A stretch of DNA of 34,860 nt from Thermoplasmata archaeon. Lineage in GTDB: Archaea > Thermoplasmatota > Thermoplasmata > Thermoplasmatales > Thermoplasmataceae. Position numbers and translations under genes: made by a program. The stretch lies in assembly GCA_021802055.1 (NCBI GenBank), contig JAKAAY010000018.1, forward strand, positions 1 through 34,860, in the 5' to 3' direction. Below, piece by piece: positions 28,691 to 34,602 of this stretch. Each line of letters begins with the position of its first letter. The first letter of the stretch is position 1. The notes below the pieces were generated by a model, which did no database searches, had not been told where the DNA came from, and saw only the letters and a program-made list of their open reading frames with translations.

Positions 28691-28763
28691 GGGTCTGTGG
28701 GGTAGCCTGGCATCCTTCCGGCTTCGGGAGCCGGAAACTCCGGTTCAAATCCGGACAGACCCA
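28691..28763 (+). tRNA. tRNA-Pro (CGG)
   Basis: Acceptor stem GGGTCTG (28691-28697) pairs with CAGACCC (28756-28762), discriminator A28763. Anticodon stem CCGGC/GCCGG encloses the loop TTCGGGA, giving anticodon CGG at 28725-28727. T arm TCCGG TTCAAAT CCGGA is perfect. There is no intron and no encoded CCA. Confidence 0.95.
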
Positions 28764-29470
28764 CTATTAACTATGATACAATTGTTTCATTATATCCCTT
28801 CTTAACGGGTTTATTTATATACTCATGCCATGCTTTTGGATCACTTTTTGGGATATATTAATGGTTGAATAAAAATAGACCTGATCCATGCCATCCATGA
28901 TTGGAATGTTTAGACTTTGATTTTTAACTAATTTTAAATTCGAATTTCCCATCCATCGGAACGGGTGCATTTCTATCCTTCCTTACTTACATTCCAATCT
29001 CTATCCCTATCTTATGCCCGTCCATTGCGTCTTATCCCTTCGATCATCCAATGGCATGGATCGCCATATCGATTCATGTTTTGCCGTTGCATTAATCCAG
29101 CAGGATTGGCACTATAACCGAGGTCTGCGGTTACTATTGATGTTTGTGTTGACCTTTATTCAAGAGCCATTTAGAAACCTAATTTGGAACCAGCACCATT
29201 GCATGTGAGGATTCATGGGAAAGTATCCATCAATTGAGATAATGTCTTAAAATAGATTCAAAGCAGCTAATTTTTATAAGTCCTGATCTTTTCTTTACAC
29301 AAAATGCTGGACACTACCAACCCAGTGCGGTAAAGGTTCATGACTATTGACCATGAGGCCATGAAAAGTTGTTTCGGTGAGAGTTTTTTTGGAATTCTCC
29401 TCAAACAGTCCAGGAAGAGGACGAAAGGTAATTGAGTCCTATAGACGACTCCGGAAACCATTATACACGG
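28764..29470. other. Long non-coding stretch, no supported gene
   Basis: About 700 bases of AT-rich sequence separate tRNA-Pro from the accessory region. The frames present are short, lack ribosome-binding sites and give no recognisable protein. There are TATA-like strings (near 28812-28820 and 29270-29280) and a small hairpin, ATGGC-(7 nt)-GCCAT, near 29052-29068. It may be eroded DNA bordering the mobile region. Confidence 0.5.
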
Positions 29471-30073
29471 CTAGGGCTTGATTTGTGTTCTGGCAAAAAT
29501 CATGTGGTAAAACAGAAGGAGAACGATCGATGCAACCATTACAATTGCGGCGCCTGAAACGGGCGTCATGGACAAATAGTGACCTTTGTAGCTCTCAAGA
29601 GCAATCACGGGGGAAAAGAAGTATATTATTCCACTCATGATGAGTCCTGCCCTCAAATGGATTATGGTATAATCTTCAAGCAGAGCCGTTATGGAAAATG
29701 GTATCAGGAAGAGAAAGGAAATTATCATAAAAAAAGATATTGAAGGAGACGACAGGAGAGAACTGAATAGCACGATAGACGAATAGATGAAGATTGAGGC
29801 AACGACCAATGACAGTAAAGATGTGTGCCCAAAATAGACCAGTAAAACAGACTCTGCCCCCAGGAAAGGGACAAAACTAATGAACAGGGCAGAAACCTTT
29901 CCTAGAGACACTGCAGACCAGCTTTCCAGAAGGGGGACCTCGAAAACTGTAATAGACTTATCCCTGACAAAGTGAAGGCCGTTTGAAAGAATGATTAAGG
30001 GGATTACAAGAAACTGAACAACATAGTAGTAACTATCAGAGATTAGGCTGTTGCTGAATATGTATGCTTGAAG
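29471..30073 (-). pseudogene. ABC-2 type permease, interrupted by an insertion sequence (3' part)
   Basis: The open frame runs from the insertion junction (30073) to the stop at 29471 and encodes 200 residues with about five or six hydrophobic segments. The region HFVRDKSITVFEVPLLESWS followed by AVSLGKVSALFISF resembles the coupling helix and third membrane helix of ABC-2 permeases. No ordinary start exists until a GTG at 29911, which would lose 54 codons, including one membrane helix. Joining 32242-32228 to 30073 across the insertion restores a continuous 205-residue protein starting at ATG 32242. The partner ATPase gene ends at 32280. The permease, and hence the transporter, is probably non-functional in this strain. 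Confidence 0.75.
30068..30073 (+). repeat. Target-site duplication, left copy
   Basis: TTGAAG directly adjoins the left terminal inverted repeat and is repeated at 32222-32227 beyond the right end. A 6-bp duplication fits IS1634/IS4-type elements. Confidence 0.75.
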
Positions 30074-30086
30074 CTTACTTTCCGCA
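30074..30086 (+). repeat. Left terminal inverted repeat of the insertion sequence
   Basis: CTTACTTTCCGCA is the exact reverse complement of 32209-32221. Partial similarity continues inward for about twelve bases. Confidence 0.8.
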
Positions 30087-30114
30087 AAAATTTAGAGCAT
30101 TATTCCCGAATTTT

Positions 30115-31809
30115 TCATCCGCCCGGAACAGCATTCCAGTCCTGCTGGTAAGAGTCGGAGGGGGCACCTGCCAGTCTCAACAGATCTTCCTGCCGCTGCG
30201 TAAGTTTCGGCAGGAATTTCTTCACCATCTTTCCATCCGCCTCGATCCAGTTCATCTGTACCATGGAGAAGTCACCCAGAACACGATCAGTTGTGGGTGA
30301 TTCGCATGACCTGAATTCAGGGTATATCCGGATTGATTTCCTCTCCTCTTTTTTCATGCCATTCCTGATCTCACGTTCTATGAGGCTCTCAACCAGTAAT
30401 GCGAGAAAATACACAAACAGGAAACCCTCTATCCTGTCCACGTTCTTCAGCATGACAGGTGCAACCCCGTATACGGATTTGAGCTGCTCATGCCTCTTCT
30501 CCACATGTGGCTGGAACTTGTAGCTGGAAAGAATCTCCTTCAGGGACAGCTTCCTGTCGTTGGTGATCAGGGGAAACATGCCGTCGCATGTTTCGTCAAA
30601 GTCGATATTTTCCTCTTCCGGTTTCCACTCCACATGGAATCGCTTCCTGATCACGGTGCGGTATTCCGTCATGGGCCCGGGTCTTCCTCTGGAACGCTGC
30701 ACCTTCCGTTCCACATCCTCTTCTGTTATCCTGAATCCAACCCATCTCCTCGCGGTCCTGCCGATGGCAGCTTCCGACGCCTTCTTCACGTCATCCATGC
30801 TGTGAAGCCTGCATTTCTTCGACCTGAGCTTTGTCTCCAGCCTTTCAAGATCCATGATGGATTTGCGCATCATGCCATCCCGCACATCCTTGTCATGCCC
30901 TGCCTTCTGTGAACTCCACACCCATACTGTGCGGAAACCACCGGAAGCAGGAACGGGGGACTCAGCCAGCTTCCATACCTGCCCCCTGTCCTCCTTCTTT
31001 CCATGCACGGTCTCCTCCCATACGACAGTATGGGACTGTATCCATTCCTGGAACATGCCATACTCCTTCCAGGTTGCCGGCAGGACGGTGATGAACCTTC
31101 CATTGTTTCCGTCAATGTATTTCAGGTTTGCATCAGAGCAGAGCTTTGAATCTGCAACGTAGAGGAAATCCGATCTTCCGGTAAGCTTCCTGATGGAATC
31201 CCATGTCTCGATGTGCGTCGGTGAATCATTCGTATTGCCGTCAGCAACCCTGTAATGTACGGGGACTGAACCGTCTGCAGTGACTGTGAGGATCCATACA
31301 AGCTGCTTCAGGTCCTTCCTGTGATCCTTGCTGTGGCCGAATGTAAGGTTCACGGTCTTCTTCATCCTCATGTCTTTTCCTGTCGCTGTCCGGTATAAAC
31401 CGCTCAATGCCACGGATGTCGAATCGTTGTGGAACCTCTTCATGGAGAGGTCAAATTCCCTGACAGCGCTGACAACAATCTCTGTCATGAGTGATGACCT
31501 GTCGGCATCGAAAAGCCTTTCAAGGGATCTGCCAATGCGGTCATCATTGATGTGCATGGCATCATCACCGGATGTGCCAAGCAGTGCCTGCGGATATTCC
31601 TCCACCCATTCCCCGATGCCGTACAGGGGTTCCCTTGAGACAAGAACGTTCCGTATCAGGATCCCGATGCACTGCACTGTACCGGCATCATGTGCTGATT
31701 GAAGCCGGCTGCCAATGATCTCTTCCAGGTGCAGCCTCTCCATGAAATGGTTTATGACGGGCAATGGCCCTATGGTTTTTGTATGAAGTTCCAGCCCTTC
31801 AGGATCCAT
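30115..31809 (-). CDS. DDE transposase, IS1634/IS4 type
   Basis: The 564-residue protein begins with the N-terminal domain typical of IS1634 transposases (HTKTIGPLPVINHFMERLHL, DUF4277-like). Candidate catalytic residues are Asp129 in RFHNDSTSVALSG, Asp220 in LYVADSKLCSDANLKYI, and Glu437 in KFQPHVEKRHEQLKSVYG, the K/R-x-E-x-L-K type motif of the IS4 superfamily. The frame has no stops, so the enzyme may be active. It reads from ATG 31809 and diverges from the passenger gene. The start-to-start gap of 49 bp holds a TATA-like sequence and an 18-bp palindrome. Confidence 0.9.
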   Translation of the reverse strand: MDPEGLELHTKTIGPLPVINHFMERLHLEEIIGSRLQSAHDAGTVQCIGILIRNVLVSREPLYGIGEWVEEYPQALLGTSGDDAMHINDDRIGRSLERLFDADRSSLMTEIVVSAVREFDLSMKRFHNDSTSVALSGLYRTATGKDMRMKKTVNLTFGHSKDHRKDLKQLVWILTVTADGSVPVHYRVADGNTNDSPTHIETWDSIRKLTGRSDFLYVADSKLCSDANLKYIDGNNGRFITVLPATWKEYGMFQEWIQSHTVVWEETVHGKKEDRGQVWKLAESPVPASGGFRTVWVWSSQKAGHDKDVRDGMMRKSIMDLERLETKLRSKKCRLHSMDDVKKASEAAIGRTARRWVGFRITEEDVERKVQRSRGRPGPMTEYRTVIRKRFHVEWKPEEENIDFDETCDGMFPLITNDRKLSLKEILSSYKFQPHVEKRHEQLKSVYGVAPVMLKNVDRIEGFLFVYFLALLVESLIEREIRNGMKKEERKSIRIYPEFRSCESPTTDRVLGDFSMVQMNWIEADGKMVKKFLPKLTQRQEDLLRLAGAPSDSYQQDWNAVPGG

Positions 31810-31830
31810 GCAACAGCAATACCGGAGAGC

Positions 31831-31838
31831 TTATTAAT
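31831..31838 (+). promoter_or_regulatory. TATA box of the passenger gene
   Basis: TTATTAAT lies about 25 nt before ATG 31859, consistent with leaderless transcription and supporting that ATG as the start. Confidence 0.45.
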
Positions 31839-31840
31839 GT

Positions 31841-31858
31841 ATGGGCATTACTGCCCAT
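31841..31858 (+). promoter_or_regulatory. Perfect 18-bp palindrome between the two IS genes
   Basis: ATGGGCATTACTGCCCAT has 7-bp perfect arms and a 4-nt centre. It ends on the base before ATG 31859 and lies between that gene's TATA box and start, 32 bases upstream of the transposase ATG. This is the placement of a repressor operator; a role as an RNA hairpin is the alternative. Confidence 0.55.
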
Positions 31859-32161
31859 ATGGAGGCATGCATCCTTGTATTCCATCTGCCGAAGAAGATG
31901 AACAATAGCGATCTGGGAAAGTTCGTGAAGAGATTCTACGGGCAGGAAACAAGCACACGAAATGGAAAATACAGGTACAGGAGGAGGGGATTGCTTGACA
32001 GTATCCCTCACCGGAAGCTGTTGCGTGGTGTCATAATTATCAGGAAGAGTGATCTGGAAGATGTCATGAAATTATTGATCCAGTGGAATGCTGTGGTGGA
32101 TCAAAGAATAATTGAACCAACTGAGGAGGACCTCAAAGTGCTCCAGGAGGTAGGGAAATAG
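31859..32161 (+). CDS. IS passenger protein, unknown function, 100 aa
   Basis: The small basic protein begins MEACILVFHLPKKMNNSDLG and continues with FVKRFYGQETSTRNGKYRYR, then RRGLLDSIPHRKLLRGVIII and DLEDVMKLLIQWNAVVDQRI. The pattern (strand, basic loop, strand, helix) suggests a small alpha/beta or ferredoxin-like fold. I do not recognise a named family. I prefer ATG 31859 over ATG 31841 because the latter falls inside the palindrome and a TATA box sits 25 nt before 31859. It lies wholly inside the terminal repeats, so it moves with the element. A regulator of transposition, acting at the palindrome, is one possibility. Confidence 0.65.
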   Translation: MEACILVFHLPKKMNNSDLGKFVKRFYGQETSTRNGKYRYRRRGLLDSIPHRKLLRGVIIIRKSDLEDVMKLLIQWNAVVDQRIIEPTEEDLKVLQEVGK

Positions 32162-32208
32162 GTATTCAGGAAGCTGATGAATAATTCGAAGATAAGCCTT
32201 TCAACTCA

Positions 32209-32221
32209 TGCGGAAAGTAAG
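32209..32221 (-). repeat. Right terminal inverted repeat of the insertion sequence
   Basis: TGCGGAAAGTAAG on the plus strand is the exact reverse complement of 30074-30086, and the TTGAAG target duplication follows immediately. Confidence 0.8.
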
Positions 32222-32227
32222 TTGAAG
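32222..32227 (+). repeat. Target-site duplication, right copy
   Basis: TTGAAG adjoins the right inverted repeat and matches 30068-30073. Confidence 0.75.
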
Positions 32228-32242
32228 GAGTATTATCAACAT
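32222..32242 (-). pseudogene. 5' fragment of the interrupted ABC-2 permease
   Basis: These seven codons, ATG TTG ATA ATA CTC CTT CAA on the minus strand, encode MLIILLQ and continue in frame, once the element and one TTGAAG copy are removed, into AYIFSNSLISDSYYY at 30067 and below. The fragment lies 37 bases after the ATPase stop. The frame is open further upstream but holds no ATG, GTG or TTG there. Confidence 0.65.
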
Positions 32243-32279: not shown

Positions 32280-33125
32280 TTACTGTACCATCTTATGGAG
32301 CTGAGTAGCTTCGTAGTACGCCCTCCTTATACCTGCCTTTCTGTATCCCATTATATTTCCTTCTGACATCATCTTCTCAAGCTTCTCTTTCTCGGACCTG
32401 ACCAAGAAGATCCTGCCGTATCTAAATAGGACCTCCAGCCCAGGTTCTGAATAATCAGGAAGATAGATTTCGTAGATATTGTCCCTGTACAGTGAATGCA
32501 TGTCACCCATCCAGGTTATTTGCCCTTTACCAAGTATTACGAAGTAATCCCCAACTCCTTCCGCTTCTTCAGGCAAATGAGTGGAGAATATGTAGTCTAG
32601 GTTGGACTCAACCGCCAGATATTTCATCAGGACTGAGGACCTGAAGGCATCCAGTCTGGAAAATGGTTCATCAAGAATCAGCGATCTAGATCCACAACCT
32701 ATTGTATTAAGGATGTTAATGAACTGTTCCTCTCCGCTTGACAGTTCTGAGATCTTTTTTTCCAGAGCCTTGTTCAGTTGCAATATATCAATTAGGGTTT
32801 CAAGGACTTTCCCGCAACCACGCGTCACAGAGAGAAATCTGGTATAATCCATGACCTTGAAGCGGTACGGGTAATGCGGACGCTCGAAGGAAAACGAAAA
32901 GCGGGAAACAAACTCATCCCTGTTTAAATACGGGTCAATACCGTTGACAAGGACGTGGCCATCTGAAGGACGCAGCAGACCACAAAGAAGGGAAAGGAGA
33001 GTTGTCTTGCCCGATCCGTTCTGCCCAAGGATTGCGATTCTCCTGGAACTCACATCCAGGTTAATCTCATTGAATACTTGAACAGCACCAAAACTGAACG
33101 ATAGATTCTTTAGTTCCACCTTCAA
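32280..33125 (-). CDS. ABC transporter ATP-binding protein
   Basis: The 281-residue protein is a single ATPase domain plus a C-terminal extension of about 70 residues. Motifs: GQNGSGKT (34-41, Walker A), ELSSGEEQF (127-135, signature, degenerate from LSGGQ), LILDEP (149-154, Walker B) and STHLPEEAE (His183, switch). The Q-loop glutamine appears replaced by glutamate (SFERPHYP), as in some ABC-2 type exporters. It would energise export through the ABC-2 permease encoded next, which is broken by the insertion sequence. The start lies four bases after the end of the upstream membrane-protein gene. Confidence 0.9.
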   Translation of the reverse strand: MKVELKNLSFSFGAVQVFNEINLDVSSRRIAILGQNGSGKTTLLSLLCGLLRPSDGHVLVNGIDPYLNRDEFVSRFSFSFERPHYPYRFKVMDYTRFLSVTRGCGKVLETLIDILQLNKALEKKISELSSGEEQFINILNTIGCGSRSLILDEPFSRLDAFRSSVLMKYLAVESNLDYIFSTHLPEEAEGVGDYFVILGKGQITWMGDMHSLYRDNIYEIYLPDYSEPGLEVLFRYGRIFLVRSEKEKLEKMMSEGNIMGYRKAGIRRAYYEATQLHKMVQ

Positions 33126-33129
33126 GAAA

Positions 33130-33975
33130 CTACCTCATTTGCCTGAATGCGATTATGGATATTATGAGCCCTGCTCCAAGTAGGACCAAATTAAGCGGCA
33201 AACTTGCCTCAAAGCCGTAATAAATCCAACCGACCCAATCCTGTTGCGGCGCTGAGTTTCCGCTGCCTATGATAATGCTCGCTCCCCGGCTAAAGTCATT
33301 ACCGGTGACCCCGGGATAGATATAGTGAAAAATTGAGCTAAAATTCTGCGAGTATTTCATGTTTGCCAGTGCATACTGCGTCCCGATGTGAACGTACTGC
33401 ACCACGTCAAAGGCAGGCAATCTTAGGTTATGATAAGCCGGATATCCGAGAAAGGGTCGAACTACCAGGTGCGAAATATTATTTGAGGAGATGCTTGCGC
33501 TGAAAAGTGGAGTTTTTACCCCTGTGCCGTTTGGCAACAATAGTGATAGAAAGGGGTTGCTGTCCTGGTTGACCACATCAGTATGATTGTAAACCTCCAA
33601 AATTTGAGAAGCAGAGAACGGCAAGGAGGGTAGATTATTGATGTTGAACCCAATGGACGTTCCTACCAGTTTGTAGACAATGGTCTCCATTGAATACTGG
33701 CCACGACCCTTATCAGTAATGGTTGCCTTGAAACCATAGGAATACGGTTGACCGGTGCTATTGATGAAGAGTCCGCAAGTACCATAGTATGTCAGGGAAG
33801 AACCATCAGAGAATGTATTCTGGTACGGTTCAGTAATGTAACTCCCAAAATAAAAGGTAGTCACTGGTATAAAATTTATGAGAGCCCCAGTGAGAACCAT
33901 GACCACCACTAATAGTGTGGAAATTCTAATGCTCCTTCTCATTCTGGGTCTCTTTTTGCTCGCAGACATGGCCAT
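33130..33975 (-). CDS. Membrane-anchored extracytoplasmic protein of the ABC operon
   Basis: From ATG 33975 the protein has 281 residues; GGTG (33982-33985, minus strand) lies six bases before this ATG, so I prefer it to the GTG at 33984. After a basic start (KKRPRMRRSIR) come a membrane helix (TLLVVVMVLTGALINFIPV), about 210 residues with many Asn, Ser, Thr and Tyr typical of an exterior domain in acidophiles, and a C-terminal helix (SLPLNLVLLGAGLIISIIAF) ending FRQMR. Both termini are thus probably cytosolic with the bulk outside. I recognise no family. It is followed by the ATPase gene, so it is likely an accessory, substrate-handling or immunity-type component of that transporter. Confidence 0.7.
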   Translation of the reverse strand: MAMSASKKRPRMRRSIRISTLLVVVMVLTGALINFIPVTTFYFGSYITEPYQNTFSDGSSLTYYGTCGLFINSTGQPYSYGFKATITDKGRGQYSMETIVYKLVGTSIGFNINNLPSLPFSASQILEVYNHTDVVNQDSNPFLSLLLPNGTGVKTPLFSASISSNNISHLVVRPFLGYPAYHNLRLPAFDVVQYVHIGTQYALANMKYSQNFSSIFHYIYPGVTGNDFSRGASIIIGSGNSAPQQDWVGWIYYGFEASLPLNLVLLGAGLIISIIAFRQMR

Positions 33976-34052
33976 CGTTGACACCGGAAATCTCTATCAT
34001 AGAATTAAAGCGTTATCCGCTCTTCATTCTTGTGAGAGTTTCGAAACGGGGA

Positions 34053-34602
34053 CTAATCGACCTCCACCGGTATGAAGTACACGGCTTCTGTTAGTGACTG
34101 GCCAAGGATGTATGCTTGCACACCAACTTCATTAGGATGTCCTGTGACCTGAACTATGTTCAGCACGATTGTACCGCTGGTAGTGGTGATCTGGTATGAT
34201 GTCTCAGAGTTAAGGACATATGCCGATTGTGAATTACTGGTTCCCGTGATCGAGGCAGATGACCACCAAGGGTGATTTACCCAGTTGTGGAAATAGGTAT
34301 TCTCATTCAGGACAAATTGGCCTGCGCCGGTATTGTCTTCCCAGTTCCATTGTGTATTTACCTGACCGAGACACCAACCCCACATGTTATTTTCCTGCCA
34401 GGTTGTAGTATAATAATTACCGGGAACGTAGGCTGCAGGAGTGGCGTGTGGCTCTGTTGCAGCTTGTGCTGAAGGCATCATCAACCAAATCAGAGACAGA
34501 ACCACCACGGAAAAAACTAATCCCGCCGCAAGGAAACATACGGTTTTCCGCTTTGACCTTTTCTACCCGCTGATCAGTATAGATACTTTCTTGATTTAAC
34601 AT
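34053..34602 (-). pseudogene. Trp-rich secreted protein, apparently frameshifted near its 5' end
   Basis: The main frame (34053-34508 and upstream to a stop) encodes a basic segment KRSKRKT, a hydrophobic stretch (VCFLAAGLVFSVVVLSLIWL) and a signal-peptidase-like site PSAQA, followed by about 130 exterior residues with eight Trp and one Cys (NNMWGWCLGQVNTQWNWED, NWVNHPWWSS). That frame has no good start: a GTG at 34508 would discard the basic part. An ATG at 34602, 24 nt after a TATA box, opens a neighbouring frame (MLNQESIYTDQRVE). Removing one base from the T-run at 34559-34562 joins the two. Either the gene is frameshifted or the run is a sequencing error. Family unknown; first gene of the ABC operon. 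Confidence 0.6.

Follow-up and report, generated by a model that had tools for sequence, protein, structure and literature searches.

An insertion sequence of the IS1634 family probably transposed recently into the permease gene of a predicted four-gene exporter operon in the window (the whole 34,860-nucleotide stretch of archaeal DNA analysed here) and, together with a frameshift in the secreted-protein gene of the same operon, has left the operon non-functional, a reading to which we assign a probability of about 90%. Disruption of a gene by an insertion sequence is in itself an ordinary kind of event; the operon affected is undescribed. The relevant features of the window, in the order in which the operon is read, are as follows.

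34053–34602, minus strand: secreted-protein gene, with its N-terminus from ATG 34602 and a GTG ORF (34508–34053) in another frame
33130–33984, minus strand: membrane protein, 284 residues
32280–33125, minus strand: ABC transporter ATPase, 281 residues
32228–32314, minus strand: 5′ part of the permease gene; its start region, probably at ACG 32314, overlaps the ATPase gene (start in the original prediction, ATG 32242)
32222–32227: target-site duplication TTGAAG, copy 1
30074–32221, minus strand: insertion sequence of the IS1634 family, 2,148 bp
31841–32161, plus strand: 106-residue ORF inside the element (passenger gene), divergent from the transposase
30115–31809, minus strand: intact IS1634-family transposase, 564 residues
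30068–30073: target-site duplication TTGAAG, copy 2
29471–30073, minus strand: 3′ part of the permease gene, with 198 intact codons and two more contributed by the duplication

The element is bounded by imperfect terminal inverted repeats (∼49 nt, 76% complementary) and by a perfect 6 bp direct repeat, TTGAAG, for which longer or shorter alternatives match no better. Two random 6-mers drawn from the window are identical with a probability of 0.000325 (∼0.03%). The ends (CTTACTTTCCGCA...) were set independently of the target duplication, using copies of the element in two other genomes, G003 and G004. The full-length relative in G003 is 77% identical over 2,154 columns, shares the CTTACTTTCCGCAT ends with the window element and is flanked by its own 6 bp duplication, TTATAA; the transposase of the G004 copy is deleted, and the ends of this copy are identical to those of the window element. 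The transposase in the window is open throughout and contains the Pfam domains DUF4277 and DDE_Tnp_1. The assembly of the window genome (G000) holds a single copy of the element, which has a G+C content of 52–53% compared with ∼45% in its surroundings.

The 106-residue ORF of the element is 88–90% identical to its counterparts in G003 and G004 and is more strongly conserved than the transposase (dN/dS ∼0.07 versus 0.14). It has no family match, and its own family is present in 39 of 250 genomes of the class. Relatives of the ORF (loci L041, L060, L091, L092, L094 and L095) lie divergent from transposases of two kinds, IS1634-type and IS5-like, the latter including near-identical copies in G004. 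The ORF may encode a regulator or accessory factor carried by the element.

Removal of positions 30074–32221 and one copy of TTGAAG yields an open frame of 205 codons from ATG 32242 (233 codons from stop to stop). The preservation of this frame across the junction had been taken as something not to be expected by chance, but it has a chance probability of 1 in 3, so that the frame match alone is weak, and the actual proof comes from a relative. An uninterrupted operon without the element is present in a genome of the same genus (G002, contig 37, JAKAFX010000015.1; MAG Thermoplasmata archaeon WY2.bin136). When the flanks in the window are joined, they align with its permease without a gap over 205 codons, at 74% identity, and the spacing from the ATPase stop to the 205-codon ORF is 37 nt in both genomes; the flanks thus join exactly as the original prediction had them. 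The permease frame also spans the insertion site in eight further operons of relatives, mostly with 229–230 residues. A profile search of contigs with a two-row alignment returned the known G002 record as its sole match. These comparisons confirm the element, the duplication and the joined frame, bear out neither of the two refuting conditions named with the original prediction, and support the earlier proposal that an intact insertion sequence splits a putative ABC-2-type permease gene directly after its ATPase gene.

The length originally given for the permease, 205 residues, corresponds to a frame that is indeed open, but the gene probably comprises ∼229 codons. The proposed start, ATG 32242, is TTG in G002, and the homologues start with an ATG ∼24 codons upstream, overlapping the 3′ end of the ATPase gene. 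At this position G000 and G002 both have ACG (32314–32312 in the window), and G018, the closest relative, has its ATG there; neither G000 nor G002 has an ATG, GTG or TTG in frame upstream of the ACG. A stretch of 13 codons at and beyond the ATPase stop shows three, zero and eight differences between the two genomes at codon positions 1, 2 and 3, respectively, and the peptide IRWYSKGLYPxPYTEA is conserved. This third-position bias and the conserved peptide suggest that the extension is translated, probably from a non-standard start of uncertain position. With the extension included, the identity to the G002 permease is 75% over 229 codons, and the insertion would fall after about codon 31, within the first transmembrane helix, instead of after codon 7. 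An AGGAGG lies ∼7 nt upstream of the ACG codon (32300–32314, minus strand). A search of the literature on archaeal ACG starts returned nothing relevant.

The permease has no sequence match in Pfam, NCBIfam or the PDB, and none of the six homologues tested has an ABC-2 match in Pfam. The AlphaFold model of the G002 permease (pLDDT 85) shows a predicted six-helix ABC-2 fold, and its best matches in the PDB, all of the ABC-2 type, are NosY of NosDFY (PDB entry 7o0y), PmtCD (PDB entry 6xjh), ABCG25 and ABCG2. The match to NosY has a modest E value of 4.5 × 10⁻³, with a probability of 1.00 and a TM-score of 0.64. Since the model matches ABC-2 folds and the adjacent gene encodes a PF00005 ATPase (73.7 bits), assignment of the protein as an ABC-2 permease is well supported.

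The ATPase and the membrane protein are 77 and 70% identical to their G002 orthologues, respectively. The membrane protein has hydrophobic segments at both termini, separated by a large domain, and has no match in Pfam, NCBIfam or the PDB; sequence searches of Pfam, NCBIfam, PADLOC and the PDB assign neither it nor the secreted protein to a family. An AlphaFold model of moderate quality (pLDDT 68) shows the secreted protein as all-β, and a Foldseek search with this model gave nothing significant and no confident PDB match. The dN/dS values relative to G002 are 0.08 for the ATPase, 0.17 for the membrane protein and 0.11 for the secreted domain.

The secreted-protein gene carries a lesion of its own. 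The G002 protein is encoded in a single frame from MLHQEDIYANPRAE...RAENRLLFAAGVV into the mature domain, whereas in the window the conserved N-terminus MLNQESIYTDQRVEKVKAENR (from ATG 34602) is out of frame with the signal peptide and the mature domain. Compared with G002, the window has one net extra nucleotide between ∼34541 and ∼34510, in addition to a 27 nt in-frame difference, as read in a single assembly. The operon thus probably carries two lesions, the insertion and the leader frameshift, the latter otherwise being an assembly error. Both are present in the assembly, and both appear to be recent, since the rest of the coding sequence has not decayed: the permease remnant retains a signature of purifying selection (dN/dS of ∼0.10 for the permease and, relative to G002, of ∼0.12 for its 3′ part), which dates the insertion as recent. 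That the upstream genes would be left without their channel agrees with the lack of a second match to the permease in G000; with the leader itself frameshifted, the damage appears to extend beyond the missing channel that was originally envisaged.

We weighed several other accounts of the same region. The 146-residue ORF that runs from GTG 29911 is open and has a legal start codon, and could be read as a complete small membrane protein, with the codons near 32242 as unrelated intergenic sequence. This is scarcely credible, as all intact homologues cross the insertion site and continue for ∼83 residues N-terminal to 29911, none beginning near that position, and G002 matches both flanks of the element without a gap, which already refutes such a reading. 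The remnant might instead still be made as a working permease, either from a non-standard start in the end of the element or in combination with another subunit: beyond the last stop of the element, starting at an ATT just inside it, the frame runs open into the permease, and the purifying-selection signature is intact. A recent insertion would leave an identical signature, however, and the remnant lacks the N-terminal helix, which is conserved, as well as half of TM1, and contains no in-frame ATG, GTG or TTG before GTG 29911, so that we consider a working product very unlikely. It is also conceivable that the ATPase might pair with a different permease.

Only slightly less improbable is a reversible or polymorphic insertion, in which some cells keep an intact gene and the element switches it on and off. 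The apparently intact and recent element and the undecayed remainder of the permease gene are in keeping with a switch, but a simple one leaves the frameshift in the secreted-protein gene of the same operon unexplained, and DDE insertion sequences rarely excise precisely. The preferred account remains recent transposition followed by loss of function. The element would have entered the last gene of an operon encoding a secreted β-rich protein, a two-helix membrane protein with an extracytoplasmic domain, an ABC ATPase and an ABC-2 permease, duplicating a 6 bp target and cutting the gene in its first transmembrane helix. As the 3′ remnant would be without a usable in-frame start, no full-length permease is expected. 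The insertion and the leader frameshift together would leave the operon non-functional, probably because selection has been relaxed on an accessory exporter often absent from genomes of the order.

The gene order secreted protein, membrane protein, ATPase and permease is found in every complete copy of the operon inspected. The membrane protein occurs in 11 of the 117 genomes examined from the order, and a sample of 400 genomes across the class yielded neither it nor the operon beyond the order. In G036 the operon has decayed, and the greater part of its membrane-protein and ATPase genes is gone; the many frameshifts in the G009 copy are possibly assembly errors, and this copy is not counted as firm decay. 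Such a patchy distribution, with degradation at least once elsewhere, is as expected for a dispensable accessory exporter, and the gene order suggests that the operon is likely to export the secreted protein or to interact with it. In G002 the operon adjoins different genes than in the window, and this genome has a second, divergent copy of all four genes (L034, G002:C40), while the window genome has only one. A tRNA-Pro(CGG) gene (28691–28764, plus strand) lies ∼700 bp from the end of the operon; a second copy of its 3′ end, which would mark an integrated island, was not found in the window. More speculatively, the four genes could make up an undescribed system of the order, serving secretion or antagonism, in which the exporter and the leader of the exported protein were lost together and the permease starts, in this genus, at a conserved non-AUG codon, the ACG inside the ATPase gene; we regard this combination as doubtful.

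The window offers a clear and verifiable example of a predicted archaeal exporter disabled by an insertion sequence, with an uninterrupted copy in a sister species for comparison. Its wider value lies in the operon, a four-gene set that is unannotated except for the ATPase, is patchy across an acidophilic archaeal order and has been lost or broken more than once. The less ordinary features are this unannotated operon, the absence of a canonical permease start in the genus and the passenger ORF of the element.

Lactococcin 972-type bacteriocin operons consist of a secreted protein, a membrane protein and an ABC ATPase. The operon described here resembles them in the idea of its gene order, in combining a small secreted all-β protein with a dedicated ABC exporter and in its patchy distribution, but its secreted and membrane proteins match no NCBIfam or Pfam family above cutoff. 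Assignment to this type is not supported, the secreted protein having no lactococcin match and the ATPase scoring 64.8 bits against a TIGR03608 cutoff of 254.85; a search of the literature on archaeal bacteriocin ABC operons found nothing relevant. The resemblance to NosDFY and other ABC-2 transporters lies in the predicted permease fold, which matches NosY, and in the PF00005 ATPase; the permease differs in having no Pfam or PDB sequence match, and no search performed relates its partners, the membrane protein and the secreted protein, to NosD. The element itself, as judged from its sequence, is a member of the IS1634 family, which is frequent in Euryarchaeota and is characterized by A+T-rich duplications of 5–6 bp, C-----YT ends and a listed length of 1,500–2,000 bp (PMC2266710). 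Its transposase scores 238.1 bits against NF033559, the NCBIfam IS1634 transposase model, far above the cutoff of 100 bits; both of its ends are CTTACTTT, beginning with C and with YT at positions 7–8 and so fitting the C-----YT pattern; and the 6 bp duplications of the window element (TTGAAG) and the G003 copy (TTATAA) are A+T-rich. At 2,148 bp it slightly exceeds the listed lengths, which are a typical range and no strict criterion, because it carries the divergent 106-residue ORF.
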